Source: a virus. Taken from it: a stretch of DNA of 34,128 nucleotides. Of the stretch, positions 740 through 29,306 are shown in pieces. The notes below the pieces were generated by a model. It was not told the DNA's origin and searched no databases. It worked only from the letters and a program-made list of their open reading frames with translations. The DNA lies in IMG/VR virus record IMGVR_UViG_3300005584_000014, positions 1 to 34,128 of that record. The stretch is one strand, 5' to 3'. Numbering within the stretch: the stretch's first letter is position 1; the number at the start of each line of letters is the position of its first letter. The translations under genes and the position numbers were made by a program.

Positions 740-1423
740 ATGGCCACAGAAGTATATAAAACAAAAATAATATCATTAGTAGATGATACAAAAATAGAGT
801 TGTCTCCATTAAAAATAAAATATCTTAGAAAGTTTATGCTTGAGTTTGAAAATGTTAAAATAGCAAACGGAGACCTAGAAGCCATATCTGCCTTATCCGA
901 TTGCGCTATGATTTGTATGGAACAATATAAACCAGAGATTGCAGTTTCTCAGGAAGTATTTGAAGAATATATTAACCTAGAAATAATCTATAGCATTCTT
1001 GAAGTAGCAGCGGGAGTTAAAATAAATAAAGACTCAGAAGAAGAAGTAAAGAAACAAGCAGTAGATAGCGGATCAACCTGGGATGACTTAGACCTTGCAA
1101 AAATTGAGTCTGAGGTTTTTCTATTGGGCATATGGAAAGATTATGCAGAACTAGAAAATTCTTTATCTATGCCTGAGTTAGTTATAACCCTTTCAACTGC
1201 AAGAGATCTTGAATATCAAGAAAAGAAATTTTTAGCAGCAATGCAAGGCGTAGATTTAGATAAGAACAAAAATGAAAAGAACGCCTGGGAAGAAATGAAG
1301 GCAAGAGTATTCTCAGGAGGCAAGGCAACAGACGCAAATGACATTTTAGCCTATCAAGGAATAAATGCTCAAAAGGCTGGTTTTGGAATCGGCATGGGCA
1401 TGGATTATGAGAGAATAGACTAA
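740..1423 (+). CDS. Tail assembly chaperone, long (GT-like) form
   Basis: A 227-residue protein likely to bind the tape measure and guide tail-tube assembly. Residues about 1-95 resemble the whole of the 106-residue protein encoded next. Shared features include L-x-D-x-T-K near the start, PLKI, FM about 8 residues later, a central DC-x2-I, QY-x-P, and a Y-x-I-x2-A-x-G ending. Residues about 110-227 are an extra charged domain with conserved-looking tryptophans, and end Gly-rich. This matches the G plus T arrangement of lambda-type chaperones, but encoded in one frame with no slippage. The ATG at 740 (or 737, adjacent in frame) has no ribosome site; the -10 box at 728-733 suggests a leaderless message. 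The role is inferred from position and the paralogy. Confidence 0.7.
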   Translation: MATEVYKTKIISLVDDTKIELSPLKIKYLRKFMLEFENVKIANGDLEAISALSDCAMICMEQYKPEIAVSQEVFEEYINLEIIYSILEVAAGVKINKDSEEEVKKQAVDSGSTWDDLDLAKIESEVFLLGIWKDYAELENSLSMPELVITLSTARDLEYQEKKFLAAMQGVDLDKNKNEKNAWEEMKARVFSGGKATDANDILAYQGINAQKAGFGIGMGMDYERID

Positions 1424-1439
1424 AAAATACGCTTGGCTA

Positions 1440-1448
1440 TGGTATAAT
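1440..1448 (+). promoter_or_regulatory. Extended -10 promoter for short chaperone gene
   Basis: TGG-TATAAT is a perfect extended -10 element in the short gap between the two chaperone genes. No -35 hexamer is seen at the usual distance. Predicted start is near 1455, giving a leader of about 20 bases that contains GGAGGAAG at 1464-1471, a strong ribosome site four or so bases before ATG 1475. Confidence 0.65.
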
Positions 1449-1474
1449 TAATTAATTCACATTGGAGGAAGTAC

Positions 1475-1795
1475 ATGTCAGAAAAGATTGAAAAATTTGA
1501 ACTGTCACTAATAGATGGTACAAAGTTCGAAGCAAAGCCACTAAAAATCTCATTGCTAAAGCCTTTCATGAAGGCGTTTACAGGTTTGGCTGATGTTGCA
1601 GATGATAACGAAAAGTCTATGGATGTATTGCTAGACTGTGTTCAGATTGCATTTAAGCAGTATGTTCCAGATCTATCAGAAGATCGAGAAAAACTGGAGG
1701 AAAATCTAGACCTTCCTACAGTGTACAAAATTATTGATGCAGCATCTGGAATTCAACTCTCAGATCCAGCAGCATTGCTAAACGCACTAAAATAA
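1475..1795 (+). CDS. Tail assembly chaperone, short (G-like) form
   Basis: A 106-residue protein that aligns over its whole length with the N-terminal half of the preceding chaperone, at roughly 30 percent identity by eye. It lacks the C-terminal extension. In many long-tailed phages a short chaperone (G) and a rarer -1 frameshifted long form (GT) come from a single gene. Here both forms seem to have separate genes, each with its own promoter, just before the tape measure. I looked for a slippery heptamer near the stop and found none. The strong GGAGGAAG ribosome site and perfect TATAAT suggest that the short form is made in excess, as G is over GT. Assignment by position and paralogy. Confidence 0.7.
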   Translation: MSEKIEKFELSLIDGTKFEAKPLKISLLKPFMKAFTGLADVADDNEKSMDVLLDCVQIAFKQYVPDLSEDREKLEENLDLPTVYKIIDAASGIQLSDPAALLNALK

Positions 1796-1818: not shown

Positions 1819-4800
1819 TTGTCTGATGTAAATGCAAATATAAGTATCAATTTTGATACTGGTCAAGCACTTGCAAGTTTACGTCAGTTACAGGCGGGTC
1901 TCAGCCGTTTTAATCAATCACTAACTCAGGGCAATGTCGCTGCTGCCAATGCACAAAAGGGTCTTAATGACCAACTTATGCAGGCAATCAATGCCACTGG
2001 AAAGTTCGTTGCTACACAGAAAAATATAGCAACAAGTACATCTTCATTTACATCAGCGCTTGAAAAAAATCAACTCTCAATGCGAGAGTACTTTAGGTAT
2101 ACTGCTGCTGCAGCGACAGCAAACACTAAAGTATTTAAAAACATGTTTGCCCAAGAGCGTGAGATTATTAACCGTGCTCGTAAAGATCGAGTAAAATCTC
2201 TTCAGGCTCAGTATATTCAGTTGTCAGATGCTTCAGGCAATTTTGTTAAAACTTTGCAGGTAGTTCCAAAGCACCTTCAAATGGTAAATGGTCAGTACGC
2301 AGACTATGCTACAAGAATGCAGATGGCAGCACAAAGACAGCAATTCTTGAATCAGTTGCTTAAGCAAGGCTCAACACAACTTCTAAACTTTGGTAAGAAT
2401 ACTCAGTGGGCAGGTCGCCAGTTAATGGTTGGTTTGACAATACCTCTAACACTTCTTGGATCCACCGCAGCAAAAATATTTATGGAAATGGAAAAGGCTA
2501 CAGTTAAATTCTCTAGAGTTTATGGAGATATGACAACTAGCGGAGATGCAACAAACAAAGCAATTGCAGATATTCAAAGATTAGGTAAAGAGTTTACTAA
2601 ATATGGAGTAGCAGTAAAAGATACAATGGAAATGGCAGCATCTGCTGCTGCAATGGGTCTAACTGGAAATGCTCTAAATGCACAAGTAATTGCAGCAACA
2701 AGACTAGCAGTTCTTGGACAAGTTGAACAGCAACAGGCTTTAGAGACAACCATATCTTTAACAAATGCTTTTGGAATCGCAACTCAAGACTTAGCAAATA
2801 AGATTAACTTTCTTAACGCAGTAGAAAACCAAACAGTTCTTTCAATTGAAGATTTAACAATTGCCATTCCAAAGGCTGGACCAGTTGTAAAGCAACTTGG
2901 TGGATCTGTAGAAGATCTTGCATTCTTTATGACTGCAATGAAAGAAGGTGGAATCAACGCATCAGAGGGTGCTAACGCACTCAAATCTGGTCTTGCTTCT
3001 ATGATTAACCCTTCAAAGAAAGCAAGTGAATTCCTTGCAGGCCTCGGTGTTAACATCAAAGGTATTGTAGAGGCAAACAAAGGAAACTTAAAAGGAACAA
3101 TTGTTGGATTTGCACAAGCACTTGATACGCTAGACCCACTTAATCGTGCAAGAGCAATTGAGCAACTATTTGGTAAGTTCCAGTTTGCTCGTCTATCAAC
3201 GCTATTCCAAAACGTAACAAAGGATGGATCTCAGGCATCCAGAGCACTTGCTTTAGCAGGAGCATCAGTTGAAGAACTAGCAATCTTATCTGAACGAGAA
3301 CTTGGAAAAGTAGAGGATGCAACTGGTGTAAAATTTAAGAAGTCTATTGAAGACCTTAAGAATCAACTTATTCCAATAGGAAAAGCATTTCTTCAAGCAG
3401 CAACACCAATTGTAGAATTTGTTGGAAAACTATTAACAAAATTTAACAACTTAAGTGAAGGAACAAAAAAGACTGTAGCAATTATTGTTGGAGTTGTCGG
3501 TGGCCTTGCTCCAGTTGTTTTGATGACATTTGGTGTTGTAATGAATGCACTTGCAAATGGAATTAAATTATTTGCAAAACTTCGTGAGGGAGTTGCTAAA
3601 CTTAACGGATCAAACAATGTTCTTGGCGGAGGGTTTGATTATTTAACACAAGAACAGATTGAGAATGTTGCACAGACAAATGCGCTACATACATCACACT
3701 CTCAATTAATATCTACATTTAATATTGAAAAGTCTGCAGTGGATGGACTTGCAGCAGCATATGGAAACGCAGCAAGCCAAGCAAGAACATTAGCAGCATC
3801 CTCACCAGGATTATTTAACACTGTGCCAGGCCCAGCAGGTGCCGTTTCTGGATTACCTAAAAAGCCAATTGGGTTTGCACAAGGTGGTGTAGTTCCTGGA
3901 AGGGGAGATAAGGATACTGTCCCAGCAATGCTTACCCCTGGAGAAGTTATTCTTACAAAAGACACTGTAAGAAATAATCCAGAGTTAGTTGCAGCATTAC
4001 AAAATAATTCATTTAAGAAATATCATGATGGAACTGGTGGTGGCAGTGAAGACATTGCTGCTAGTTTAAGAGAAAGATTTACATCTACATCAGCACCAGG
4101 ATCAGAAGCCTTCAAGGGAAGAATGAAAACATTAGTAGATGGAGCAATGTCGCAAACACAAAAAGGTGTAGAAAGAGTAATTAGGTTTGCAGCAGAATCA
4201 GGAGTAACAATTACTGCTGAGCAAACAGATCAAATAGAGTTCTATAGAAAAGAAATGCTTAAGTCAGTTCGACAGGCTGGAGATGCTCTAGTTGGTGCAA
4301 TTGATTTAACTAAAGATCAAATTAAAGATAGACTTAAAACAATGTCTCCAATTGCAGGAACACAGGCTGCACCAAACAGAAACACATTTGATTTAGTTGA
4401 TAAGCACGGTAGCCAAAACTTGTCTGAAACATTTGGTCACTTAACACCAGGAGTAAGAATGTCTGGTCCTCAAACTAGAGAAAGACTAGAGCCAGGATCA
4501 AAAGTTGCTACTGAAATTGATGCAATAGAGAGAGCAGCAAAACATTTAAACAACCTTCCACAGTCTGACCCACGAAGACCTAAAACACCAATAGTTCCTG
4601 AATTCAATGTAGTCAGCGGACTTGGTATAGATGGCATGTCACAAGAAACAAATACACTATTAAAAAATGGAACTAAAAATACACAAGAATTCTTAAATGA
4701 ATTAGGCAATGTTGGACCAGTTCAAGCGTGGGATACACTAATGAAACAAAATGGCCTAACTATAGAAGAAAATGGCCGAGAAATAGAAATTTTACACGCA

Positions 4801-7800
4801 AAATTTAAGGCTTTTGTTGCAGACCTTGCAACAAAGAAAAAAGTAATTTCTGATGCAGATGTTACAGGATTCCTAACAGGAATAGAGAATGATCCAGATA
4901 TTAGTCCAAGAATGAAAAATGCAGTATCAAGATCTAACAACACAATAACAGCAGCCCGACTCAGTGGTGTTTCTTCTACAGATGGAGCAAACATAGAAGA
5001 TGTTGTTAGAAGTGGAGAAGTAAAAGTACCTGGTTTAGTAGACCGTACAAAATTTAAAATTGCAAAATCTGGTAGTGCACAGGGTGGAGAGTCTGTATCT
5101 AATAGAGTTAATGGAATTGGATTCTATGATGCAGAAGTAGAAAAACAACTAGCAGCAGAAGCAGAAACACTTAGACCTCCACGAGTAAGGGCTACTCCAG
5201 AAGCAGAAGCAGATGCTGAACTAGAAGGTGAAAAGATTGGCAAAGCAGCGACAAGAGGTGTAAGGAAGGGTGCAAAAACAGAGTCTCCTTCTACAGATGG
5301 AATTGAAGTTGGTAAAGATATTGCAGAAGGAGTTGTCATTGGTTTGCAACAAGGAACACCAGGGGTTGTTTCTCAATCAGAACAACTTGGTAATGCTGCA
5401 GTTCCAAAAGAAGTAATAAACGAAAAGATGGATGTTGGAAACAAGGCATTCTATGATGACCTTAATAATCCAGAAGACTATGAAGAAAGACAAATTCTTA
5501 AATCAGAAGATAGGCAAAGAAGAAAACTTGGTAAGGCTCGTGCAAGTGTTGGCAAAACGGATATCGACAACAAGCAATTTTATGATGATATTGATACTCC
5601 AGAATTTCGTGAACAAAGACAAATACTTAAGTCTCAAGATAGACACAGAAGAAAACTTGCTGCTGTTGGTCAGGTAGGAGCAGCAACGCCAACTGATGTA
5701 CCTTCTCAGACTGCACAGTTAACTGCTGCCTCATCAAAAAGAGTTACAACTGCAACTGAAAAATTAGCAGTTAAAACAGAAGAAGCCGCAATTGCTCAAG
5801 CCCAGATAGTTCAACAAATTAAGGATGAGAGTAGGTCAAGAGTTACGATTAAGGGCAATACTGTAAATATTGGTAAGGCTCGTGAATTAGCGGATAAGGC
5901 TGAAAACGAAGCAGCAATTACTAAAGCCCGTGCACATGCACTTGAAGCAGAACAAGCAAAGCAAAAGAAATCAAACTCACCAACAACAATTACTGATGAA
6001 CAGGTACTTGCTGCTAAAGAAAAAGCAAATGCTGCAGAATTAGAGTATGCACAAATAAGAAAAGAATTAGCAGAACAGGGTATAGGAGCAGCCCAACCAG
6101 CAGAAATTAAAAAAGATCAAGAAGTTATGTCTAATGGAACCGTTGAAGCAGGAGACGGTATGAGACGAATTGTTGAGGGTACAGACGACACAGCAGACTC
6201 AACTGTACTAGTTGCAGATAAAACAGATGAACTTGCCAGCATAACTGGAGAAGCAGTTGATGCTCAGATGGCAAATACAACCAACCTAATAACTGGTAGC
6301 AAATTAACAAATGCAACTACACAAAATCTTGGAGAAGTTCTTCAAGCAACAGATCAAACTGGATTAGCCCAAGGTGATCTTGCAGAATCTTCAGAAAATA
6401 CTGCTAGACTTAGTAAAGATATTGAAGAAAAAAAGAGAAAAGAAAACGAACTAGCCAAAAAAAGACTTGCTCGTCTTATGGCTGAAGAATCTGTGGATGG
6501 AGTTATTCCTCCAGGTACGCAATCAGCAAGCAAGTATATTAACCCAGAAGAAGCCATGGGCGCAGAAGAAGCATATGACTATGCAATGGGAAGCGATCCA
6601 GACCCAAACGATCCAACAGATAAAGGTCAGACTGGTTTTACAAAAGATAAATTTGGCAAAATTCTAATTGATCCAGAAACTGGAAATCCAACACATCTTA
6701 CAAAGAAAGAACTCACAAAAAAGACACGCGGACTTCGTAAGGAGAAGGTTAGTAAGATATCTGGTAAGGCAGCAGGAGCATTAGGAACAGCAACAATGGT
6801 TGCGGGTATGGCTGGTGCTCCACCACAGGTAACAGCAGCACTCGGCGCTGCAGCAACTGTTGCTCAGTTTGCACCAGCACTTGCAGGTATGGGCCCAATC
6901 GGTTGGGCAGTAGCAGGTATTGCAGCAGTAGGTGCATCTGCTTATTTGGTCAACAAACATTTTGAGGGAATGGCAAAAGCACAGGCAGAGTATGTAAGAA
7001 ATACAACTGCAAGTTCTGAAAAACTAAAAGCCATTGGAGAATTAAACGGTGTCGTTGGTGCCAATGAAAAAATGAATAAGCGTAGAGAAAATGGACAACT
7101 TCAGGGATACAACGAAGTAGAAAGAAAAGGAACTGACTACGGAGTTAAGTATTTAGAAAATGCAACTGGAAAGTTAATGATGGATTCTCTTAAAACTAGC
7201 ATTAATAAGACTGGAGCAAAAGAAGCAGCAGAAGAGGTTGCACTACAACTTGCTGCACAGGTATCTGATGGAGTGCTTACTGCTGAGCAGGCAAAGAGTG
7301 TTGCATATCAGATTGGACTTAATCTAAAAGACTCTACAATGACAATGAATATTAATGGAAATCTGAGAGCACTTATTGGACCTAACGGAGAAGATCTTAT
7401 TAACGATCCATTTACAGCAAGAATGAGACTTGTTGCAGTTTCAGAAAACAAAACAAAGACTGCTAAAGCAAATATTAAAAAGGCTCAAAAAGAAAATATT
7501 GGCTGGTCTTGGATGGGTCTTAAAAAATCTGGAGCAAATGAGGCTGCACAGGTCGCAGCGCTTTCTGGTGCTGCAGTTGAAATGGCTTTGCTTCAAGCAG
7601 ACTCAATGGCGGTATATGTTGAAAAGCAAAAAGAAACTCTTGAAGCACAAAAGGCAATCACAAAAGATAAAGCAGAGCAATTAAGAATTGATACGCAACT
7701 AGCAAACCTTGACTCAATGTCAGCAAGAGCAAATGCAAGAGTTGCTGTATCTGTAGACAATGCCGTTGACCAGACAGATGGAATTATTACTGGACAAAGT

Positions 7801-10800
7801 GGTATTACAAATACAAATCCTATTCTTGGAATGATGAGTGGAAAAAACCCTATTGACGCACTGACAGGTGGTTATGGTATAGGTGCCCAAGGTATAGGTA
7901 TGGCAATCTTACAAAGCACCATGCCTGGGGTAGGTGGAATACTTGGTTCTCTGCTCAACAGAGATGGAAGAGTAGAAGATGCTTACTTTGATGCAAACAA
8001 AGACGATGTAAAAGCAAAGTATAAAGGAACATCGCAAGAAGCGTCAGCACAGAGAGTTTTAGATTTAGGTGCAAAAGCAGATGAGGATGCATCATTTAAA
8101 GGTGACAAAATTGCTGGAAGAAAATTTGAAGCCAAGTTACAAATCCTGATGTCTTCTGGAGTAATGGATCCAGATTCAATAGAAAACCTTCTCAGAATAT
8201 TTGGAGGAGATTATAAGAAATTAAATACTATGCTTACAGTTGGTATAAAAATGCACGGTGGAGCAAAGATGGCAGAACTTACTGGCCTTCTTGGCAGCAC
8301 AAATGATGCAAGTGCAAAAAAGATAATTGTTCGAATGGTAAGAAAAAATCCAAAAGAGTTTGATAAAATTGCAAGAGCCCTTGCACTTATAAAAGCATCA
8401 GATGGACTTGAAGTTAGCATGGACCTAATGCTTACAAATATGACTCAATATGAACTAGATCAACTTGCAAACAAACTAGACATAATTGATAAAATGAAAA
8501 CGCCGATTGAGCAAGAAGTAATTATTAAATACGGCAAAGATCATGAAGTAGACATGAGTGGCATTATTGAAGACTGGGATTACTATGGACAAATGAAACC
8601 AGAAGTAAGAAAAGAAGCAGTTGCAACTTATGTAATGCTTAAAGAATTCCTTATGAGTTTTGATAGTCCAGAAGCAAAAAAACAATGGGCAATTGACACT
8701 GCAAAAGCCGCAGCAGAAATGGTTGGAGAAGAAGGCGACGCCAAATATCAAGAGACCTACGAAAAAACTTATAAACTGATAATGCTAGATGATACAGGTG
8801 CAGCAGCGTCTGGTCTTGTTCAAACAAAGTATGGTGAAGATCCAAACCTAGCAATTCTAACAGCAGGAAATATAGGTGATCCTCCAGAGAAAAAAGACAG
8901 AGACACAACATACGATGACCTTCTAAAGCGTCTTCGTAATGTTCGTAATGCTGCTATTGATGCATCAAAGGGAGTTAAGGAACTAAACGCCGCACTTGCT
9001 GCATCTGGAGCAAAATCAGTTCAAAATAGATTTGAAGGTATTTCACAACAACTAAGAAGTAAGGGTGTCAACGAAGAATTTATTGAATACCTAAAGGGAC
9101 TTGACACAAAAGATTTAAAGAAGTTTGCATTTGTTGCTACTAAAAAGGGTACACAAAAATACACAGAAAAAGTTGGAAAAAGAAATAAAGATGGCAGTAT
9201 TGCTAAAGATAAAAATGGCAAAGTCATAATGGTAAACAAAGAGCAGAAGTACAAGGCTGGCGATCTTGTATTGACTGATCTTGGAAATCAAATGAAGCGT
9301 GGTGGAGAAAAGGCTATAATTGGAGAATTCCAAGAAGCACAAAAGATATCTTTAAGAAACCTTAAAGACCAAGAAACCGTACAAAGAAAACTTTCAGCAC
9401 TAGGATATGATCAAATAGCAATAGAAAGAATTCTTGGAGATGAGATGTCAACTCAGATTATTGCTTCTAACAGATTAACAAAAGAAGAGTTAGCCCGAAG
9501 CGCTGCATTAGCAAAAGAAGTTTCTTTAAGAGAAAAAATAAATGGCTTAATTGAAACAGGCAAAGAAGCATTAAAATTAGCAGCAAACATAAAGAAGGCT
9601 CCACAACTTCAAGAGTTCTTTGACAAAATGAAGAGTCAAGGAATAAATCTTTCCCCTGCAGCAATGCAAGGTATGTTAACAGATCCAGCGCAACTAGATG
9701 CTGCAATAGCAGCAATGGCTTTATATGAAGATGGTGCTGATGGAGCCCTTGGAAAACTTCAAGAAATTGTTACAGCACTAGAAGCCATTAAAGCAAATTC
9801 AAATATTCAACTTGCTCTTGAGTTTGCAGCAAAAGATAATTACGGAAAGGTACAGGCTGGCGCTGCAGCAGCGCAAAGAGTAATGGATACTAGGAGAGTT
9901 GCATACAACAACATGACTCCTGCTGAAATACAAAAACAGACTGTAACAAATGCTAGAACTGGAGTAACAACTAATGCTGGCTCAATAGGATATGCAAGTG
10001 CTGTTAAAAATAAGTTTGGTGATGAAAAAACTGCAGCAGCACTCGAAGCAAGCATTGCTGGTAAGTCTTTGGCTGGAGTTCAAAAAGAAAGAGACGCCTT
10101 AGCAAAAAGATCTGCAGTTGCCGCTGCAGCAGCAAATGTTTCACAACAGATGCTTAGTTCTGCACAAGATGCACTTTCAAAATTGCAAGAAGGTTTATCA
10201 AAAACTCTTGATGGTATTAATAAGAAGTATGATGAAATAATTAAGGGGCAGCAAAAGAGTATAGAGACTCTAAACAAAAGACTTAATGACGAGTTTGATA
10301 AGAAGATAAAGTTAAAGCAAGAAAGAATTGGAATGCTTTCTAATGACCTAACCCTTATGGACAAGCAGGCAGAATCTATTAATGAAAAATATGATGCTCA
10401 AGTCACAGCGCTACAAGAAGTTCAAAGAGTTCAAGAAGCCATTACTGCACAACAACAACAGCAACTGGGATTAGCAGATGCACTAACCCAAGGAGATTTA
10501 TCGGCTGCAGCCCGTGCTGCACAAGAAATTAGGGCAGCAAATGCTGCACAATATGGTGGAGGTCAGTTTGAAGCACTTGATCTTTCAAGAAAGAATGAAC
10601 TAGACTCACTTAAGGGTGCAGAAAGTGGACTTACAAGAAAGCAAATTACAGAAGAGCAATTCCAAATTCAGCAAGATTTGTATAAACTTGAAACTGATCC
10701 AGTAAGAAAGAAAATACTTGAAGACATTGAAAAACTTACAGAAGCAATTGCAAAAAATGAAGAACTACGGACAAAAGAACTTGAAGATGCTGAAAAGAGC

Positions 10801-11871
10801 ATAAAGGCTCAAATAGATGCACAACAACTTGTGGTAGATGCAGCACAGGCTGCTTCAGACATTCACTCAAAGATAACTGCTGATCTTGCTTTGCAGGATG
10901 CAGAACTTGCAAGTCAAGAAATTGCCTTAGCAGCAATTGTTGATAGCGTTGTGGATATAGATGACACAACTGGATTGACACTTGAGGACTGGAAAACTCT
11001 TGCTGAGAAAACTCTAGATGTTGAGGGATATGCTCAAGATATTGCACAAGCACTACTTGCAAGCGAAGGAAGTTCAGCAGCAATCGCTGCTTCGTGGGCA
11101 AGCATACTTGAGACGATGAAGAATCTACCAAAGAGTATTACAACAACACAATTTATTAATACAGTTAACACCGTAACTACAAAGACAGTTACAACACCTG
11201 CAGATCCAACATCAACAGCATCAACAGCAAATGCAGCAGTCGATGCAGCAACAAAAGCAAAAGATGCTGCACAACTAGAAGTTGACACTGCAGATAAAAA
11301 TTTACAAGAGGCATACAACAAAGGACAATGGTATAATTTCTCTTCTTTACAGGGTATCCTTGCCGATAAAAAGTTAAAATTAAAAGATGCAATCACAGCC
11401 TTAGATGCTGCCATTGCAGCAGCAGCAGTCAAAAAAGAGCCAACGCCTGAAGAGGTTGCAGCAGCAAAAAAGAAAAAAGATGAAGAAGACGCAGCAGCAG
11501 CCCAAGCAGCAGCAGACAACGGAACATCTAGTTCCAACTGGAAACCAGGAGATCCATTGCTGTATCGTGCTAAGGGAGGAATGATTAACCCAATGAGATT
11601 TGCTATGGGTGGTTTTGCAAAGGGCTCAGATACAGTTCCAGCGATGTTGACACCTGGAGAATTTGTTATGAGTAAATATGCTGTTCAATCACACGGAATT
11701 GGGAATATGAAAGCAATAAATAGTGGTGCCCCACTCGCTGGAGATTCAGTGTATAATTATAGTGTTAATGTTGCTGTGCAGTCAGATGCTAATCCAGATG
11801 AAATTGCAAGAGCAGTAATGAGACAAATAAGACAAGTAGACTCACAGAGAATTACGGGGAATAGAAACTAA
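1819..11871 (+). CDS. Tape measure protein
   Basis: At 3350 residues this is the largest gene of the window. Tape measure proteins line the tail tube, set its length and help DNA enter the cell. Residues about 150-480 resemble the TP901-type tape-measure core: a tail-length region, then 'MEKAT' with helical Ala/Gly-rich segments. Hydrophobic stretches lie near 554-585 and 1650-1712, the usual membrane-inserting segments. Residues 1208-1293 hold two copies of a 43-residue repeat. Around 2780-2880 is a coiled coil rich in K/E/Q. A DTVPAMLTPGE motif, typical of tape-measure ends, occurs twice, at 699-709 and 3271-3281. The region before the end is Ala/Lys/Glu low-complexity. No lysozyme or peptidase domain was recognised. 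Using the known ratio of about 0.15 nm per residue, the tail would be near 500 nm. The start is TTG. Confidence 0.93.
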   Translation: MSDVNANISINFDTGQALASLRQLQAGLSRFNQSLTQGNVAAANAQKGLNDQLMQAINATGKFVATQKNIATSTSSFTSALEKNQLSMREYFRYTAAAATANTKVFKNMFAQEREIINRARKDRVKSLQAQYIQLSDASGNFVKTLQVVPKHLQMVNGQYADYATRMQMAAQRQQFLNQLLKQGSTQLLNFGKNTQWAGRQLMVGLTIPLTLLGSTAAKIFMEMEKATVKFSRVYGDMTTSGDATNKAIADIQRLGKEFTKYGVAVKDTMEMAASAAAMGLTGNALNAQVIAATRLAVLGQVEQQQALETTISLTNAFGIATQDLANKINFLNAVENQTVLSIEDLTIAIPKAGPVVKQLGGSVEDLAFFMTAMKEGGINASEGANALKSGLASMINPSKKASEFLAGLGVNIKGIVEANKGNLKGTIVGFAQALDTLDPLNRARAIEQLFGKFQFARLSTLFQNVTKDGSQASRALALAGASVEELAILSERELGKVEDATGVKFKKSIEDLKNQLIPIGKAFLQAATPIVEFVGKLLTKFNNLSEGTKKTVAIIVGVVGGLAPVVLMTFGVVMNALANGIKLFAKLREGVAKLNGSNNVLGGGFDYLTQEQIENVAQTNALHTSHSQLISTFNIEKSAVDGLAAAYGNAASQARTLAASSPGLFNTVPGPAGAVSGLPKKPIGFAQGGVVPGRGDKDTVPAMLTPGEVILTKDTVRNNPELVAALQNNSFKKYHDGTGGGSEDIAASLRERFTSTSAPGSEAFKGRMKTLVDGAMSQTQKGVERVIRFAAESGVTITAEQTDQIEFYRKEMLKSVRQAGDALVGAIDLTKDQIKDRLKTMSPIAGTQAAPNRNTFDLVDKHGSQNLSETFGHLTPGVRMSGPQTRERLEPGSKVATEIDAIERAAKHLNNLPQSDPRRPKTPIVPEFNVVSGLGIDGMSQETNTLLKNGTKNTQEFLNELGNVGPVQAWDTLMKQNGLTIEENGREIEILHAKFKAFVADLATKKKVISDADVTGFLTGIENDPDISPRMKNAVSRSNNTITAARLSGVSSTDGANIEDVVRSGEVKVPGLVDRTKFKIAKSGSAQGGESVSNRVNGIGFYDAEVEKQLAAEAETLRPPRVRATPEAEADAELEGEKIGKAATRGVRKGAKTESPSTDGIEVGKDIAEGVVIGLQQGTPGVVSQSEQLGNAAVPKEVINEKMDVGNKAFYDDLNNPEDYEERQILKSEDRQRRKLGKARASVGKTDIDNKQFYDDIDTPEFREQRQILKSQDRHRRKLAAVGQVGAATPTDVPSQTAQLTAASSKRVTTATEKLAVKTEEAAIAQAQIVQQIKDESRSRVTIKGNTVNIGKARELADKAENEAAITKARAHALEAEQAKQKKSNSPTTITDEQVLAAKEKANAAELEYAQIRKELAEQGIGAAQPAEIKKDQEVMSNGTVEAGDGMRRIVEGTDDTADSTVLVADKTDELASITGEAVDAQMANTTNLITGSKLTNATTQNLGEVLQATDQTGLAQGDLAESSENTARLSKDIEEKKRKENELAKKRLARLMAEESVDGVIPPGTQSASKYINPEEAMGAEEAYDYAMGSDPDPNDPTDKGQTGFTKDKFGKILIDPETGNPTHLTKKELTKKTRGLRKEKVSKISGKAAGALGTATMVAGMAGAPPQVTAALGAAATVAQFAPALAGMGPIGWAVAGIAAVGASAYLVNKHFEGMAKAQAEYVRNTTASSEKLKAIGELNGVVGANEKMNKRRENGQLQGYNEVERKGTDYGVKYLENATGKLMMDSLKTSINKTGAKEAAEEVALQLAAQVSDGVLTAEQAKSVAYQIGLNLKDSTMTMNINGNLRALIGPNGEDLINDPFTARMRLVAVSENKTKTAKANIKKAQKENIGWSWMGLKKSGANEAAQVAALSGAAVEMALLQADSMAVYVEKQKETLEAQKAITKDKAEQLRIDTQLANLDSMSARANARVAVSVDNAVDQTDGIITGQSGITNTNPILGMMSGKNPIDALTGGYGIGAQGIGMAILQSTMPGVGGILGSLLNRDGRVEDAYFDANKDDVKAKYKGTSQEASAQRVLDLGAKADEDASFKGDKIAGRKFEAKLQILMSSGVMDPDSIENLLRIFGGDYKKLNTMLTVGIKMHGGAKMAELTGLLGSTNDASAKKIIVRMVRKNPKEFDKIARALALIKASDGLEVSMDLMLTNMTQYELDQLANKLDIIDKMKTPIEQEVIIKYGKDHEVDMSGIIEDWDYYGQMKPEVRKEAVATYVMLKEFLMSFDSPEAKKQWAIDTAKAAAEMVGEEGDAKYQETYEKTYKLIMLDDTGAAASGLVQTKYGEDPNLAILTAGNIGDPPEKKDRDTTYDDLLKRLRNVRNAAIDASKGVKELNAALAASGAKSVQNRFEGISQQLRSKGVNEEFIEYLKGLDTKDLKKFAFVATKKGTQKYTEKVGKRNKDGSIAKDKNGKVIMVNKEQKYKAGDLVLTDLGNQMKRGGEKAIIGEFQEAQKISLRNLKDQETVQRKLSALGYDQIAIERILGDEMSTQIIASNRLTKEELARSAALAKEVSLREKINGLIETGKEALKLAANIKKAPQLQEFFDKMKSQGINLSPAAMQGMLTDPAQLDAAIAAMALYEDGADGALGKLQEIVTALEAIKANSNIQLALEFAAKDNYGKVQAGAAAAQRVMDTRRVAYNNMTPAEIQKQTVTNARTGVTTNAGSIGYASAVKNKFGDEKTAAALEASIAGKSLAGVQKERDALAKRSAVAAAAANVSQQMLSSAQDALSKLQEGLSKTLDGINKKYDEIIKGQQKSIETLNKRLNDEFDKKIKLKQERIGMLSNDLTLMDKQAESINEKYDAQVTALQEVQRVQEAITAQQQQQLGLADALTQGDLSAAARAAQEIRAANAAQYGGGQFEALDLSRKNELDSLKGAESGLTRKQITEEQFQIQQDLYKLETDPVRKKILEDIEKLTEAIAKNEELRTKELEDAEKSIKAQIDAQQLVVDAAQAASDIHSKITADLALQDAELASQEIALAAIVDSVVDIDDTTGLTLEDWKTLAEKTLDVEGYAQDIAQALLASEGSSAAIAASWASILETMKNLPKSITTTQFINTVNTVTTKTVTTPADPTSTASTANAAVDAATKAKDAAQLEVDTADKNLQEAYNKGQWYNFSSLQGILADKKLKLKDAITALDAAIAAAAVKKEPTPEEVAAAKKKKDEEDAAAAQAAADNGTSSSNWKPGDPLLYRAKGGMINPMRFAMGGFAKGSDTVPAMLTPGEFVMSKYAVQSHGIGNMKAINSGAPLAGDSVYNYSVNVAVQSDANPDEIARAVMRQIRQVDSQRITGNRN
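5440..5697 (+). repeat. Two 43-residue tandem repeats inside the tape measure
   Basis: Two adjacent 129-base units encode residues 1208-1250 and 1251-1293. Each begins NK-x-FYDD, then P-E-x-x-E-x-RQILKS-x-DR-x-RRKL. About 22 of the first 31 positions match. The DNA has diverged at wobble positions, so this is an old duplication under protein-level selection. Confidence 0.8.
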
Positions 11872-18870: not shown

Positions 18871-18879
18871 TGGTATAAT
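18871..18879 (+). promoter_or_regulatory. Extended -10 promoter, near-leaderless fibre gene
   Basis: TGG-TATAAT is a perfect extended -10 without a recognisable -35. It lies nine bases before ATG 18889, so the predicted start (about 18886-18889) leaves at most a three-base leader. There is no ribosome site in the gap. Confidence 0.65.
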
Positions 18880-18888
18880 AGAATAACT

Positions 18889-19332
18889 ATGCCAAATATT
18901 CCAGCATTACCTGAGCGTGGCCAGCCACTAGATGTATCATATATATATAAAATTGTAGAAGCATTGACAGACATTAATAATGCTATTACTGTTTCAACTG
19001 GAAAAACAATAACTATTGACACAGTAACAACAGGACCTCAAAGTGGAAAAACATCAGATGCCAAGATTATTGGCGGATACAAAGAAATCGTTAGCGGTAC
19101 AAGCGTAACTGCTGGAGAAGAAAAATCTTTTGATTATCCATTTTCTGACTACAAGTATCCACCAATTGTTACTGCAACAGCAGTGAATATCAGCGGATCT
19201 GATGCAGGTAAAAATGTGTCCATTGTTTTAAAGCCAGTAACAACCAATAAGGTTGAAGGTGTTATTAGATTTAATTCCGCAGGTAACGCCACTGTTGGAA
19301 TTAACCTTGTGATAATTGGTATACCTAATTAA
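18889..19332 (+). CDS. Probable tail fibre tip or surface-binding protein
   Basis: A 147-residue protein. Residues about 1-35 are helical ('YIYKIVEALTDINNAIT') and could trimerise. Residues about 65-147 are a beta-rich domain ('SFDYPFSDYKYPPIVTATAVN ... NLVIIGIP') resembling the H-type lectin or fibre-tip pattern, in which a Phe/Tyr-Pro strand is followed by repeated hydrophobic strands. This could be the receptor-binding end of a fibre. It has its own promoter with almost no leader, separating it from the main tail operon. The function is inferred from fold impression and position. Confidence 0.55.
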   Translation: MPNIPALPERGQPLDVSYIYKIVEALTDINNAITVSTGKTITIDTVTTGPQSGKTSDAKIIGGYKEIVSGTSVTAGEEKSFDYPFSDYKYPPIVTATAVNISGSDAGKNVSIVLKPVTTNKVEGVIRFNSAGNATVGINLVIIGIPN

Positions 19333-20234: not shown

Positions 20235-20542
20235 TGGCCGAACGCAAAGACCGAATGGCTTTGCTTTCAAGATATGCCAAGTATCACACTGCAAAGTATG
20301 AGTCAAAGCCATCACTTAATCTTAATGTAGAGCAATGGGCTGCAGATGGACTTATAGAGTCTTACACAATCTCTGGTTGCTATGACATACTTGAGTATTA
20401 TTTTAAAGTAGCAGAGACACCCTCATGGAACCATTTTGCATATAATGCAGAAAAGATTTTACAGGCACAAAAGGATAGAATTAAAGATAATCAAGAAAGA
20501 CTAGAGCGCAGACGAATGGCAAAGGAGTGGTTGAGTGAATAA
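20234..20542 (+). CDS. Small protein before helicase, possible helicase partner
   Basis: A 102-residue protein overlapping its neighbours on both sides. It has a basic N-terminus, a Trp/Tyr-rich middle (about 35-70) and a long charged C-terminal helix (about 70-100, 'DRIKDNQERLERRRMAKEWL'). Position directly before a DnaB-like helicase would suit a loader or accessory factor, but no family is recognised, so this is inference. Confidence 0.5.
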   Translation: MAERKDRMALLSRYAKYHTAKYESKPSLNLNVEQWAADGLIESYTISGCYDILEYYFKVAETPSWNHFAYNAEKILQAQKDRIKDNQERLERRRMAKEWLSE

Positions 20543-21761
20543 CACAGAGGGAAAACTTTTATCTGCAGTTCTTCAAGACAAACAAATTCATGTTCTTCTG
20601 CAAAATAACATTGACTCCCTTTTAAGAACTCATACAGATATTTGGAATTTTATTAGACTGTACTCAGAACAAAATGCAGCACTACCACCAGCATCCCTAG
20701 TGGTAGAAAAGTTTAGAGACTTTGAACCAGTTAAGGATATTGGATCTACAAAGCACCACCTTGCAGAACTACAAACAGAATATTTAAATGACAGCCTAAA
20801 AGATATTCTTAGATCTGCAGCATCTGATGTTCAAAGCGGTAACGGCAACGGTGCACTAGAAACTCTTATTACTAAAACATCAGAACTAAAAAAGAACACT
20901 TCCACAATTAGAGATATTGATGTCACAGATCTAGAGTCTGCGATTGCTTACTTTGAAAATGTAAAGAAGCAACAAGCCCTAGGACATATCGGCATCAAGA
21001 CTGGATTGCCAGGATTTGATAACTACTTGCCGTCTGGAATTATGCCAGGGCAGTTAGGAGTCTTCTTGGCATACCCAGGTATAGGAAAATCTTGGCTTGC
21101 TTTGTACTTTGCGGTTCAAGCATGGAAGCAAGGAAAATCTCCCCTTGTAATCTCTCTTGAGATGTCTGAGACAGAAGTTCGTAATCGTGTATTTACTATT
21201 ATGGGTGAAGGATTGTGGTCACATAGAAAAATCTCTAACGGAGAGATAGAATTAGACATGCTAAAGTCTTGGCACCAAAAGAATCTTCAGGGTAAGCCAG
21301 AGTTTCATATCATTTCAAATGACCAAGGCGGGGAGATTAATCCATCAGTACTTCGTGGAAAGATCGATCAGTACAAGCCAGACTTTGTAATTGTTGACTA
21401 CCTTCAGTTGATGGCTCCTAACCAGAAGTCAGACAATGAAACGGTACGAATGAAGAACCTTTCAAGAGAACTTAAACTAATGGCTATTGGCGAAGAGGTC
21501 CCCATTATTGCTATCTCATCTGCCACACCAGATGACGCAAATGATTTAAATAGCGTACCTACTCTTGGACAGACTTCCTGGTCAAGACAGATAGCCTATG
21601 ATGCAGACTGGGTTTTAGCCCTAGGCCGTGCTACAAATAGTGATATCATTGAGTGTGCTTTTAGAAAAAATCGTAATGGTTTTATGGGAGACTTCCTAGT
21701 TCAATGTGACTTTGATAAGGGATACTATAGATACAAAGATTTCGAAGATAAGACGGTATAA
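20535..21761 (+). CDS. dnaB: Replicative DNA helicase, DnaB-like
   Basis: A 408-residue ring helicase that would unwind DNA at the phage fork. Residues about 1-60 resemble the DnaB N-terminal domain, followed by the RecA-like motor. Walker A is AYPGIGKS at 179-186; an Ala in the first position is normal for DnaB. The catalytic Glu is E209 (SLEMS). Walker B is VIVDYLQL at 285-292, with D288. Bacterial DnaB has Gln in motif H3 (LSQLxR). Here the matching segment reads AISSATP (about 327-333), so that Gln is absent. The start is GTG 20535, seven bases after AAAGGAG; it overlaps the previous gene by eight bases. It is shorter than the usual 450-470 residues. Confidence 0.88.
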   Translation: MNNTEGKLLSAVLQDKQIHVLLQNNIDSLLRTHTDIWNFIRLYSEQNAALPPASLVVEKFRDFEPVKDIGSTKHHLAELQTEYLNDSLKDILRSAASDVQSGNGNGALETLITKTSELKKNTSTIRDIDVTDLESAIAYFENVKKQQALGHIGIKTGLPGFDNYLPSGIMPGQLGVFLAYPGIGKSWLALYFAVQAWKQGKSPLVISLEMSETEVRNRVFTIMGEGLWSHRKISNGEIELDMLKSWHQKNLQGKPEFHIISNDQGGEINPSVLRGKIDQYKPDFVIVDYLQLMAPNQKSDNETVRMKNLSRELKLMAIGEEVPIIAISSATPDDANDLNSVPTLGQTSWSRQIAYDADWVLALGRATNSDIIECAFRKNRNGFMGDFLVQCDFDKGYYRYKDFEDKTV

Positions 21762-21762
21762 T
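21757..21762 (+). promoter_or_regulatory. TATAAT box, leaderless GTG gene
   Basis: TATAAT overlaps the end of the helicase gene and ends five bases before GTG 21768. It has CGG instead of TGn, and no -35 is seen. Initiation would be expected at 21768-21769, with no leader. No ribosome site precedes the GTG. Confidence 0.45.
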
Positions 21763-21767
21763 ATAAT

Positions 21768-22094
21768 GTGCAGAATTTTCATCATAGAGCAATCAAGAGG
21801 TTTAACCTTAATGGAGTCATCCATGATGATTCTGCAATTGAAAGATTAAAGGGTGAGTATATTAGACTTCTTGTCTCAGAGATGAAGTTGTCTGGATATG
21901 TGCCAAAGTTTGAGATTGAGCCAGATTTTACGCTAGACTTTAATGAAAGAAAAAAGTACTTTGAGTTTGAATTAACATTATATGGAATATATGTAGGGAA
22001 AAGGAAAAGCGAATGGATAAGCGGAATATACGGAAACAAAGCAATATATACGGAAAAGAGCAAGTTAAAAGAGTTCTCGCAGGATCAGGCATAG
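21768..22094 (+). CDS. Hypothetical protein before primase
   Basis: A 108-residue protein with no recognised family. It is rich in Tyr, Phe, Lys and Glu and looks like mixed alpha-beta. GTG 21768 is the only start that uses the whole frame and appears leaderless (TATAAT at 21757). The 3' end overlaps the primase by 82 bases, longer than other overlaps here. The ATG at 21766 is in another frame and soon stops. The gene could be shorter, or a chance reading frame, though it fills a gap of 250 bases that otherwise has no gene. Confidence 0.5.
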   Translation: MQNFHHRAIKRFNLNGVIHDDSAIERLKGEYIRLLVSEMKLSGYVPKFEIEPDFTLDFNERKKYFEFELTLYGIYVGKRKSEWISGIYGNKAIYTEKSKLKEFSQDQA

Positions 22095-22957
22095 ATGCTG
22101 TCTCTGAACTAGAGAATGAGTATATAGTTTATTGTCCATTTCACAATAACACCCAGACTCCCGCAGGAGAAGTAAACAAAGATCAGGGAACATTTTTTTG
22201 TTTCTCTTGCCACAAAGTATCAGACCTAGTTGAATTAGTTATGCACACTTCTGGAAGATCCTATTTTGAGTGTGTTAGATTTATTAAAAGTAAAGAAAAA
22301 GAAATGGATCTTGAAAAACAAATCAACCAACAACTTTATGTTAAGCCAGAGTTTACAGCATATGATGAACTAATATTAAAACGACTATACAACAACCTTC
22401 TTTCTTTTTCAAGAGGCAAAGATTATTTATCATACAGGAAAATATCAACATCTTCCTGGGCAAAGTTTTCCCTTGGCTACTCAGAAAAACAAGACATGGT
22501 TACAATACCAGTACACAGTCCAGACGGAATACCAATTGGTTTTGTAGGAAGATCAATTGAAGGGAAAGAGTTTAAAAATACTCCAGGACTACCAAAAAGT
22601 AAAACATTATTTAATTTACACAGAGTAAAAACATCTGGAAAGGTTTATGTTGTTGAGTCATCATTTGACGCAATAAGATTAGACCAGGTTGGATTTCCTG
22701 CAGTAGCAACACTGGGTGCAACAGTATCAAATGCACAAATAGATTTGCTTCAAAAGTATTTTAATGATATCATTGTCATAGCAGATAACGATGAGGCAGG
22801 CGGAAACATGATGAAGAGAATTCTTGAAAGACTTGGATCTCGTGTATCTGTAATAAAACTAAATAAAGAATACAAAGACATAGGCGATATGGACGACGCA
22901 GCAATATCTGAACTAGAGTTTAGGTTTGACAACTCCATAGATTCTATGCTAAACTAA
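22013..22957 (+). CDS. dnaG: DNA primase, DnaG-like
   Basis: A 314-residue primase that would make RNA primers for the DnaE-type polymerase. The N-terminal zinc finger has C41-x2-H44 and C63-x2-C66. A helical linker is followed by a TOPRIM domain with the catalytic Glu at E215 (VVESSFDA) and the D-x-D at D258/D260 (IADNDEAGG), and then KDIGDMDD (288-295), the usual late acidic motif. There is no C-terminal helicase-binding domain, so it is half the length of bacterial DnaG. AAGGA at 22001-22005 sits seven bases before ATG 22013. It overlaps the preceding gene by 82 bases. Confidence 0.88.
   Translation: MDKRNIRKQSNIYGKEQVKRVLAGSGIDAVSELENEYIVYCPFHNNTQTPAGEVNKDQGTFFCFSCHKVSDLVELVMHTSGRSYFECVRFIKSKEKEMDLEKQINQQLYVKPEFTAYDELILKRLYNNLLSFSRGKDYLSYRKISTSSWAKFSLGYSEKQDMVTIPVHSPDGIPIGFVGRSIEGKEFKNTPGLPKSKTLFNLHRVKTSGKVYVVESSFDAIRLDQVGFPAVATLGATVSNAQIDLLQKYFNDIIVIADNDEAGGNMMKRILERLGSRVSVIKLNKEYKDIGDMDDAAISELEFRFDNSIDSMLN
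22926..22955 (+). promoter_or_regulatory. Promoter for ssDNA-binding protein
   Basis: TTGACA (22926-22931), an 18-base spacer and TAAACT (22950-22955) extended by TGC. It overlaps the 3' end of the primase gene. Transcription should start near 22962, giving a 20-base leader with AAAGGAG before ATG 22982. The -10 with its extension is the same nine bases as at 31020-31028. Confidence 0.7.
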
Positions 22958-22981
22958 TATAACAAAACAAAGGAGAAATAT

Positions 22982-23632
22982 ATGAGCGTAGTAAAGGGAT
23001 TAAAAGCAATCAACGCCCTGCTCGACAAGCCAAAATCAGATGGACCAAAGGTTAAGTGGTTAAAACTTGCAGATGGTCAATCAGCAAAAATTAGATTCAT
23101 TGAAGAACTGGATGAAGATTCAGCAAACTACAATGAAAATCGTGGCCTTGCACTTGTTGTAAAGGAACACACAAACCCAAAGGACTACAAGCGTAAGGCT
23201 GTAGATACAATGGAATCAGAAGGCCGTGACTGGGCAGAAGAAATGCATCGCAAGGACGTAAAGGCTGGATGGCGAGCACGACTTCGCTTTTATTGCAATG
23301 TTTTAGTAGACGATGGTATTGAAGAGCCTTATGTCGCTATCTGGTCAATGGGTATCAGCAAGCAATCATCATTCAACACAATCAAAGAATATGCTATGGA
23401 GACTGGAAGCATTTCAAATGTTCTGTGGAAGTTAAAGCGTAATGGTCAGGGAACTGAAACTAATTACACACTTATTCCATCAGCACCAGACAAGGAACCA
23501 TTTGACTGGAAAGATATTGAACCATATCCATTGGAGTCAGCACTTAAGAAGATTCCTTATGCAGAACAAGAAGCCTTTTATCTAGGCTTTGACACACCTT
23601 CTATTACATCGTCAACGAATGCCGACTGGTAA
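22982..23632 (+). CDS. Single-stranded DNA-binding protein (gp32-like OB fold)
   Basis: A 216-residue protein between primase and polymerase, the usual place for the phage ssDNA-binding protein. Residues about 25-165 look like a beta-rich core ('KIRFIEELDED', 'ARLRFYCNVLVDDG', 'VLWKLKRNGQGTETNYTLIPSAPD') resembling the OB-fold proteins of other actinophages. The T4 gp32 zinc cluster is absent: only one Cys is present. The tail ends DW. A C-terminal aromatic residue is common in such proteins (compare the DIPF tip of SSB, T7 gp2.5), but the acidic stretch is weak. It has its own strong promoter and ribosome site, fitting a protein needed in bulk. Assigned from position and fold impression. Confidence 0.7.
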   Translation: MSVVKGLKAINALLDKPKSDGPKVKWLKLADGQSAKIRFIEELDEDSANYNENRGLALVVKEHTNPKDYKRKAVDTMESEGRDWAEEMHRKDVKAGWRARLRFYCNVLVDDGIEEPYVAIWSMGISKQSSFNTIKEYAMETGSISNVLWKLKRNGQGTETNYTLIPSAPDKEPFDWKDIEPYPLESALKKIPYAEQEAFYLGFDTPSITSSTNADW

Positions 23633-23635
23633 TAG

Positions 23636-26600
23636 ATGAATTATGTAGGCTTACATGTCCATACCCATTTTAGTTTATTTGATGGGATTGCTACTCCAGA
23701 AGAATACGTGAACCGTGCAGTTGAGTTGGGGATGCCAGCAATTGCCATCACCGACCACGGTACTTTATCTGGGCATAGGGAACTGCACCGTATTGCAAAA
23801 GCAAATGGCATCAAGCCAATTCTAGGTCTAGAAGGATACATGTGTGCAGACATATCTGATAAACGAGATAAGTCTGAAAGAGAAGGTCAACAAGATCTTG
23901 TCTACAACCACATTATCCTTCTAGCCAAGAATCAAATTGGTTTAGAAAACCTTAACAAGATTAGTGAACTATCTTGGACAGATGGTTTCTTTAAGAAGCC
24001 AAGATTTGATTTTACTATTTTAGAAAAATATAAAGAGGGCATTATTGTTACATCTGCTTGCCCAAGTAGTGTCCTTGTGAAAGCATTAGAAGAAGAAGAG
24101 TTTGCACTAGCCAAGAAGTATATCTCTTGGTTTAAGGAACGATTTAAAGATGACTATTACATTGAGGTTATGCCTCACAATGATGCACAGATTAATAAGT
24201 ATCTTATAGAACTCGCAGATGAGTTTGGAATCAAGGTTGTTGTGACACCAGACTGTCACCATGTTGATCCATCACAAAAAGAAGTTCAAGAGTTTAAATT
24301 GCTTATGAACACACACGGTAAGTTTGTAAAAGATGCAACATATGAAAAGTCAAAAAAGAAGGCTAACATGATGGAACGCCTTGACTATCTCTATGGCGAA
24401 GACCGTCAGATCACATTTAATAAGTTTGATATCCACCTGCTTTCATACGAAGAGATTAAAGCAGCCATGGAATCGCAGGGGATAGATAGACCTGACATAT
24501 ACTCAAACACAATCCTATTAGCAGAGACAGTAGAAGACTATGGAATCCAAGAAGGATTAGACTTGCTACCAGTACAGTACAAGAGTCCTGATAAAGAACT
24601 TGCAAAGGCTGCACTAGAAGGTTTGGTAGAGCGAGGTTTGTCAGAGAATCAAGAATACCTTGATAGACTTGAAGAAGAGTTGCAGATTATTAAAGATAAG
24701 AAGTTTGCACCATACTTCCTTGTTGTGAGCAATATGATTAACTGGGCAAAGAAGGAAGAGATTATGGTTGGTCCTGGCAGAGGTTCTTCTGCTGGCTCTC
24801 TTGTTTGCTATGCACTAAAGATTACAGACATTGATCCCATTGAGCACGATCTTTTGTTCTTCCGTTTTATTAATCCAGAGCGTAATGACTTTCCAGATAT
24901 AGATACAGATATTCAGGATACTCGTCGTGAAGAAGTAAAGGACTATCTTGTTAGACAGTATCGACATGTTGCATCTATTGCTACATTCCTACAGTTTACT
25001 GGTAAGGGAATTGTAAGAGATGTTTCAAGAGTCCTAAACATTCCTTTGTCAGATGTTAACAAGGTTTTAAAAACTGTAGACACGTGGGACGACTTCTGTA
25101 GTTCAAAGTCAACTAGAGAGTTTCGTGATAAGTATCCAGAGGTAGAGATTTACGGAGAACAACTTCGTGGTCGTATTCGTGGTACTGGAATCCATGCTGC
25201 TGGTGTTGTAACAGCAAAAGAACCAATCTTTAGATACGCACCACTTGAAACAAGATCTTCTACAGGATCCGATGAAAGAATTCCTGTTGTTGGTGTTGAT
25301 ATGGAAGAGGCTGAAAGAATTGGTTTGATTAAGATTGATGCTTTAGGTCTTAAGACTTTATCTGTTCTTAAAAACACAATTGATATAATTAAAGAACGAG
25401 ACGGAAAAAAGATTGACCTTCTTAAAATTAAAATGGACGACGCAAATGTCTATCAGATGTTATCAGATGGATACACAAAGGGTGTATTCCAGTGTGAAGC
25501 AGCACCATACACAAACCTTCTTGTTAAGATGGGCGTTAAGAACCTAAACGAACTTGCAGCATCAAATGCTCTTGTTCGACCAGGTGCAATGAATACTATT
25601 GGAAAAGACTATGTTGATCGTAAACATGGTCGTCAGAACATATCATACACACACCAAGTACTAAAGGAATTTACAGAAGACACTTATGGCTGCATTCTTT
25701 ACCAGGAACAAGTTATGCAGGCATGCGTACACCTTGGCGGTATGTCCATGTCGGAAGCAGATAAAGTTAGAAAGATCATTGGCAAGAAAAAAGATGCTAA
25801 AGAATTTGATCAATTTAAAGAGAAATTCGTAGAGGGAGCATCTAAGTTTATTGCGCCTAATGCTGCTCGTGATCTATGGCATGACTTTGAGGCTCACGCA
25901 GGGTACTCATTTAATAAGTCACACGCAGTAGCATACTCAACACTATCTTACTGGACAGCATGGCTAAAGTATTATTACCCACTTGAGTTTATGTACTCAG
26001 TGCTAAAGAATGAAAAGGATAAAGATGCGAGAACTGAATATCTTATTGAAGCAAAAAGAATGGGCATTAGCGTTAAGTTACCTCACATTAACGATTCGGA
26101 TATTGATTTTAAAATTGAGGGTAAAGGCATTCGGTTTGGACTCAGTGCTATTAAGTTCATATCTGACAAAATTGGTGAAAGATACATATCTGCACGACCA
26201 TTTAATTCGTACAAAGAACTTGAAGAATTTACCTTTACAAAAGGAAACGGAGTAAATAGCCGTGCACTCCAAGCGCTAAGAGTTATTGGTGCAGCAACCT
26301 TTAATGATAATCCTAGAAATGATCAGGAAATTAAAGAGAACTTGTATGAATACTTAAACCTTCCAGAGTTTAATATTTCAATACCTTCTCATTATTATGC
26401 ATTCATTCAGGACATTGTTGACTTTGAAGAAAAAGGGTCATACATTTTTATGGGTATGGTAAAATCAATTAAGCGAGGAACAGGATGGTCACGAGTTGAG
26501 ATTTTGGACAAGACTGGCAGCGTCGGTATATTTGATGATGAAAATACAACTATCGAAACAGGTCGTTCTTATTTGGTTCTTTGCAATGACAACAGGATTG

Positions 26601-27911: not shown

Positions 27912-28080
27912 TTTTACTGTATATTACGGAAAGTTTATATGCCATGAATGCAAAACAGAAGTGAAATCTCTTAGGCTTTATGCTGAGACAAAAACAATGA
28001 CTTGGATGTGTCCAGAAAAACATCTAAGCACTGTTAAGTTTGGTAAACAGAAATACAGGGGCAATGACAGAGAAAAGTGA
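27904..28080 (+). CDS. Small zinc-finger protein after RecA
   Basis: A 58-residue protein starting in the last codons of recA. C13-x2-C16 and C36-x3-H40 could bind one zinc. It is basic, with a Lys/Arg-rich C-terminus (about 45-58), suggesting contact with DNA or RNA. No family is recognised. It overlaps the next gene by 17 bases. Confidence 0.6.
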   Translation: MASFTVYYGKFICHECKTEVKSLRLYAETKTMTWMCPEKHLSTVKFGKQKYRGNDREK

Positions 28081-28348
28081 ATCTAAGAGAATAGGTGCTA
28101 AACAGCACAAGAACTCTGGTCGTAATACTCAAAAGGGAGATGCCTCCTGGAAAAACTTTGTTGTAGACTTTAAAGAAGTTGGAAAGTCTTTTACATTAAA
28201 TAAAGAGGTTTGGGCAAAGGCTACAACCGATGCCATGAAGAATGGAAAAGACCCAGCAATAGTGGTTGTTATGGGCGAGGGTAATTCTAAAGTAAGACTT
28301 GCTATAATTGAGATGAGCATATTAGAAGATCTAGTGGAGGGTGTATAA
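28064..28348 (+). CDS. PD-(D/E)XK nuclease-like protein, possible resolvase
   Basis: A 94-residue protein with a basic N-terminus and the pattern D26 ... D35-F-K37 (GDAS ... VVDFK), then K-S-x-T/S-L and a W50 helix and a final beta strand 'AIVVVM'. This is the order seen in small phage PD-(D/E)XK enzymes annotated as Holliday junction or related endonucleases, with E6 a possible extra ligand. Its place between RecA and a Cas4-like nuclease supports a recombination role. ATG 28064 follows AGGGG at a short distance. The pattern is short, so the call is tentative. Confidence 0.55.
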   Translation: MTEKSESKRIGAKQHKNSGRNTQKGDASWKNFVVDFKEVGKSFTLNKEVWAKATTDAMKNGKDPAIVVVMGEGNSKVRLAIIEMSILEDLVEGV

Positions 28349-28349
28349 T
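28344..28349 (+). promoter_or_regulatory. TATAAT box, leaderless oxygenase gene
   Basis: A perfect TATAAT ends exactly six bases before ATG 28356, so the predicted start is that ATG. No -35 is visible. GGAGG at 28336-28340 is 15 bases from the ATG, too far for normal use. Confidence 0.5.
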
Positions 28350-28355
28350 AGTATC

Positions 28356-28958: not shown

Positions 28959-28960
28959 CA

Positions 28961-29263: not shown

Positions 29264-29267
29264 CATC

Positions 29268-29276
29268 TGCTATACT
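29268..29276 (+). promoter_or_regulatory. Extended -10 promoter for Cas4-like gene
   Basis: TGC-TATACT lies five bases after the previous stop. No -35 is seen. The start should be near 29283, leaving a leader of about 24 bases with AGAGGA before ATG 29307. Confidence 0.55.
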
Positions 29277-29306
29277 TATATAATAAACAGAGGATAAAAT
29301 AAAAAA

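Follow-up and report, generated by a model that had tools for sequence, protein, structure and literature searches.

Fused and separate tail assembly chaperone genes as a probable replacement for programmed frameshifting in an environmental phage clade

Most tailed phages produce a short and a long tail assembly chaperone from one gene by a programmed ribosomal slip. This G/GT frameshift serves as a standard case of conserved recoding in which the ratio of the products matters. In 2004, Xu, Hendrix and Duda reportedly described the −1 frameshift as conserved among long-tailed phages, including that of the lambda G/GT chaperones. The G:GT ratio of lambda is ~ 30:1 and is crucial for tail assembly (review, PMC5009743). 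T4-like phages have been described as managing without a frameshift, with one gene for the short form and another, longer gene that includes the short part (Vladimirov, Gautam and Davidson 2022, as cited in PMC10885494), so a split pair is not new in principle. Among named phages related to the locus studied here, the Streptomyces phages BillNye, Genie2, Annadreamy and Coruscant (Stanwilliamsviridae) carry G and T in overlapping −1 frames, and the two are often labelled tail assembly chaperones there. Rhodococcus phages (Trinavirus and a relative; NiceHouse, Trina and Francesca) also have these parts in overlapping −1 frames; in the more distant NiceHouse and Francesca, the annotation joins both into one frameshift gene.

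The gene pair and its neighbours

The locus lies in a single fragment record of 34,128 bases from an environmental virus (hereafter the window), and the features of the locus are on its plus strand. Two open reading frames, gene A (740–1423, 227 residues) and gene B (1475–1795, 106 residues), were recovered at the positions given by the initial annotation, which had proposed that two paralogous genes stand here in place of one frameshifted chaperone gene. They follow the major tail protein gene and precede the tape measure protein gene, an order shared with annotated relatives. The former (26–661; ORF 17–661, with a likely ATG at 26) matched phrog_2175 (E 3e-30) and occupies the same place as the annotated major tail protein in the Streptomyces relatives, and the latter (1819–11871; 3350 residues, TTG start) matched phrog_10030 (E 9e-93) and other tape measure families.

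The proteins encoded by A and B are paralogous. BLASTP aligned residues 10–96 of B with residues 11–96 of A (34% identity, 63% similar, E 3e-18); the full-length alignment claimed initially thus holds for nearly all of B, and its last 10 residues fall outside the match. In the profile search that had been suggested as a check, both proteins matched phrog_10504 (A residues 1–108, E 2e-16; B, E 4e-19), and A continues in frame into an extension that matched a second PHROG, phrog_10474 (residues 131–213, E 7e-14). A Pfam search of A and B gave no chaperone family, only sub-threshold chance matches. The G domain of A is placed at residues ~ 1–97 (740–1030) by phrog_10504, the BLASTP match to B and a predicted secondary structure that is the same as in B. 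Its T domain, in frame with G, is placed at residues ~ 108–227 (1061–1420) by phrog_10474 and by alignment with the −1 frame T of the Streptomyces phages. Since the homologous G and T are overlapping ORFs in different frames at the same genome place in those phages, gene A is, on this comparison, a single-frame fusion of the two parts, and gene B an additional G encoded separately. Gene A is accordingly described here as a putative in-frame GT chaperone gene, on the evidence of its PHROG and BLASTP matches, its model and its GT relatives, and gene B as its putative G-only paralogue, on the evidence of its PHROG match, BLASTP and model. A chaperone function of both would follow from homology and position. 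Median dN/dS was 0.056 and 0.054 for the two domains of A and 0.087 for B, indicating purifying selection.

AlphaFold models of A and B were of middling confidence (mean pLDDT 73 and 76). In both, the G part runs from two strands into helices, so that the predicted topologies match, and the second half of A is extra relative to B. Foldseek found no significant match to either model in the PDB. Against the viral models of BFVD, the model of A had modest matches that include tail assembly chaperones and N15 GT (E 1e-4 to 0.05). For the model of B, the HK97 chaperone 2ob9 was among the top three solved structures (Z 4.2, rmsd 5.0, 86 aligned), a match too weak to be used alone.

Elsewhere, the window carries a replication block (20535–31010) with a DnaB-like helicase (20535–21761), a primase with Toprim (22013–22957), a DNA polymerase III alpha (23636–26911), RecA (26895–27911), a sub-threshold Cas4-like domain (29307–30152) and a RuvC-like resolvase (30414–31010). 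A 593-residue ORF at 32031–33812 had a weak match to a terminase large subunit, with residues 86–154 on profile positions 405–473 of 940, and its layout may be unusual.

Start signals of the two genes

Each gene had been credited with its own −10 element and the shorter one with a strong ribosome site, and all three were found. Gene A is preceded by the extended −10 TGGTATACT (725–733), the hexamer of which ends 6 nt before the ATG. Gene B is preceded by the extended −10 TGGTATAAT (1440–1448) and by a Shine-Dalgarno GGAGG (1464–1468) 6 nt before its ATG. Two further features had gone unmentioned in the initial annotation, namely the closeness of the −10 of A to its ATG and an intrinsic terminator hairpin followed by TTTTCTGTTT (686–709), which a terminator scan located between the major tail protein gene and A.

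These signals are conserved among 92 representatives of the fused class. A strict scan detected a terminator-like hairpin upstream of A in 83 of them, against 1 of 92 upstream of B and 4.8 in shuffles, and in the remaining nine the hairpins upstream of A are visible by eye. The −10 box of A ends exactly 6 nt before the ATG in 79/92, and a Shine-Dalgarno before A is absent in 91/92. Upstream of B, the −10 box reads TATAAT in 90 and carries the extended TGn in all 92, mostly 24–28 nt before the ATG, and a Shine-Dalgarno is likewise present in 92/92. Because the −10 box lies 6 nt before the ATG and no Shine-Dalgarno is present, the mRNA of gene A is predicted to be leaderless and not merely weakly started, the leaderless reading as such being drawn solely from the −10 spacing. 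For mycobacteriophages, similar leaderless promoters have been predicted (PMC4351075). In the frameshifting Streptomyces relatives, G starts as B does, behind a promoter-like box and a ribosome site, and the leaderless start of A therefore looks derived. Two further genes of the window may also be leaderless, with TATAAT within ~ 5–9 nt of the start codon (18871–18889 and 21757–21768).

In one relative (L081), two genes are inserted between GT and G, and G retains its own promoter and Shine-Dalgarno, as would be expected of an independent unit. The inserts (L081:2750–3970) code for proteins of 211 and 155 residues; the former has a sub-threshold match to a 2OG-Fe(II) oxygenase (E 9e-5) and the latter is a DUF6817 protein (E 4e-17).

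Fused and frameshifting arrangements among related loci

At least 343 related loci were collected by protein-guided scans of viral contigs and named phages, together with the window's own copies and one match in a bacterial genome. Among the matches listed, 268 of the 343 have a fused GT with a separate G behind it, and in 66 a G is paired with a −1 frame T and a second G is absent; the others lie at contig ends or belong to the distant Rhodococcus loci. Because some loci overlap on a single contig, distinct sets were counted separately, which gave at least 168 protein triples in the fused class and 53 loci in the frameshift class. No intermediate with a frameshift pair and a second G was present among the matches listed for the 343 loci, for which the best 80 of 600 homology matches were kept, so that rare intermediates may be missed. 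A fused GT without a following G was seen in only three of the loci listed, all of which stop at the contig end, and B without a fused GT likewise only where the contig ends. The scan of bacterial genome contigs contributed one relative of the frameshift type (L263), on a contig binned into an uncultured cyanobacterium MAG. Misbinning of a phage contig or an unexpected host is the probable reason.

The slip signal is present throughout the frameshift class. All 53 distinct frameshift loci have an in-frame slippery heptamer in the overlap (GGGAAAC in 24, CCCAAAT in 12, CCCGGAA in 8, CCCAAAC in 8 and CCCAAAA in 1), where CCCGGAA is a non-canonical variant at the conserved slip site, and synonymous-site constraint reaches ~ 2-fold of expectation at the 3′ end of their G genes. 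This constraint is much weaker in A and B, at 1.16–1.27 at the end of B and up to 1.39 in the linker of A. In the window, a scan for X XXY YYZ heptamers found none in frame in either gene, which confirms the initial remark that no slippery heptamer is visible. A −1 frameshift that would fuse B to the tape measure protein was also considered and rejected; relative to B the tape measure gene is in the −1 frame, but the two are separated by a stop codon.

Phylogenetic trees of the G part placed the G domains of A in one group (100/99) and the B proteins in another (100/94). The B group adjoins an environmental frameshift clade with the slip site GGGAAAC, and B is closer than A to the frameshifting G proteins. 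A T tree grouped the fused class and the GGGAAAC frameshift clade together against all others (94/90), and the fused class did not form a single clade in one of the T trees. The G domain of A is on a long branch and is not beside B in the free tree; forcing A with B gave a tree 9.6 log units worse, which was not rejected (p-AU 0.33). A more complicated origin of this domain is thus possible. The trees indicate a single duplication of a frameshifting gene as the simplest reading, a view that also draws on the frameshifting seen in both the Streptomyces and the Rhodococcus phages. The ancestor would have been a single gene with a −1 programmed frameshift that was duplicated; in one copy, G and T would then have been fused in frame and the slippery site lost, and the second copy would have shed T along with its slippery site.

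Other explanations of the two genes were weighed against this evidence. It could be argued that the fusion of G and T is an artefact of annotation or assembly, for instance an indel joining the two or a misassembled duplicate, given that the window is a single 34 kb fragment record from an environmental virus. The same arrangement recurs in 268 loci and 168 distinct protein triples from many metagenomes, with low dN/dS and conserved signals, and this number of independent loci refutes an artefact, the chance of which we consider negligible. Hidden recoding would be another objection: ribosomal or transcriptional slippage on the A-rich linker stretches of A could also give a short G. Among 94 fused-class representatives, 14 do have an in-frame heptamer in the linker of A, mostly poly-A, and 14 have one near the 3′ end of B, and the constraint of up to 1.39 in A falls at residues 106–114. 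However, the linker is free of heptamers in 80/94, the window included, and constraint of similar height (1.30–1.39) is found elsewhere in A, among other places at its start. The −1 and +1 frames of the window's linker are closed by stops, so that a slip there would meet stops at once and could add only a redundant short form. As the heptamer, frame and synonymous-constraint scans gave no consistent signal, including for a slippage site that would join the short gene to another frame, hidden slippage in A or B was rejected and is regarded as very improbable.

A and B might instead be chaperones for different jobs, for example B for the very long tape measure protein and A for another tail part, with no ratio to be kept between them. 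The low identity of the two proteins (34%), their separate deep groups and the long branch of the G domain of A would fit such a division of labour. If B were an added function, however, loci with a frameshifting G/T beside a second G would be expected, and none was present among the matches listed; nor does B occur there without a fused GT except at contig ends, and it is B that is the closer relative of the frameshifting G proteins. Different jobs are for these reasons considered unlikely. Two genes in the place of a frameshift, as initially proposed, remain the better reading: the homologues carry the same G and T parts in −1 frames, and no related locus among the matches listed has both arrangements.

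Probable ratio control and comparison with known systems

We conclude, with a probability of about 0.88, that A (GT) and B (G) are a tail chaperone pair that descends from a duplicated frameshift ancestor and is now expressed as two separately started genes. The G part of A would bind the tape measure protein and its T part would recruit the major tail protein. The source of GT would be a predicted leaderless mRNA that begins immediately after the terminator of the major tail protein gene. G would come from a separate extended −10 promoter and a strong Shine-Dalgarno, in addition to any read-through from A. As transcripts from the promoter of A can run into B, G should exceed GT, as in lambda. 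The proposal that the phage sets its ratio by transcription and translation of two genes is supported by the separate, differently built and conserved start signals, from which we infer it.

On a wider scale, it appears moderately probable that a large environmental, probably actinobacterial phage clade left the frameshift once, by duplication and fusion, and that its ratio is now fixed by a leaderless GT against a Shine-Dalgarno-led G with a consensus promoter. Seen beside its frameshifting sister group, the fused class, with at least 168 distinct protein sets, shows how such a replacement may proceed, with the gene duplicated and each copy given its own promoter and its own mode of translation initiation. 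It offers a natural experiment on whether selection keeps the ratio rather than the slip itself. It also cautions against treating a chaperone gene as misannotated only because it has no slippery site.

The pair resembles lambda G/GT in that a short G and a long GT share the G part and are flanked by the genes for the major tail protein and the tape measure protein. The lambda mode, with overlapping frames and a slippery heptamer, was not found in the window; G and T are in one frame, no heptamer is present, and two genes are used without a slip, GT first and then G, each with its own promoter. The Streptomyces and Rhodococcus phages share with the window homologous G and T parts and the same gene neighbourhood, and the Streptomyces phages, which are ~ 35–43% identical to A, also have a terminator after the major tail protein gene. 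In contrast to the window, both have a single G with T in the −1 frame, a slippery site and no second G, and the Streptomyces phages have, unlike A, a promoter with a Shine-Dalgarno before G.

The separate short gene and separate in-frame long gene containing the short part, as used by T4-like phages, are found here as well. We take the T4-like short and long genes to be T4 genes 26 and 51. Their products are weakly alike (E 2e-6) and both belong to phrog_150, with gp51 also in phrog_634, and the two genes are on opposite strands. The pair described here belongs to different protein families (PHROGs 10504/10474 against 150/634) and is arranged in tandem; in addition, its frameshifting sister group is visible and its leaderless and Shine-Dalgarno starts are conserved. 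One related frameshifting G (L248) had a weak match to phrog_150 (E 0.05).

Some Microbacterium cluster EA phages are said to express their chaperone ORFs separately, and a fused GT with a paralogous G is not reported there (PMC7302621). Papers on freshwater actinophages and Stanwilliamsviridae contained nothing on this gene pair. Searches for a duplicated or leaderless chaperone in a set of open-access papers turned up no account of this arrangement, and an earlier mention is possible. Judged by these comparisons, A and B apparently constitute a second case of a split pair, independent of that in T4-like phages. It is set apart by its different protein family, its wide spread, its visible frameshifting sister group, the strict exclusion of the two arrangements and the conserved contrast between leaderless and Shine-Dalgarno starts.
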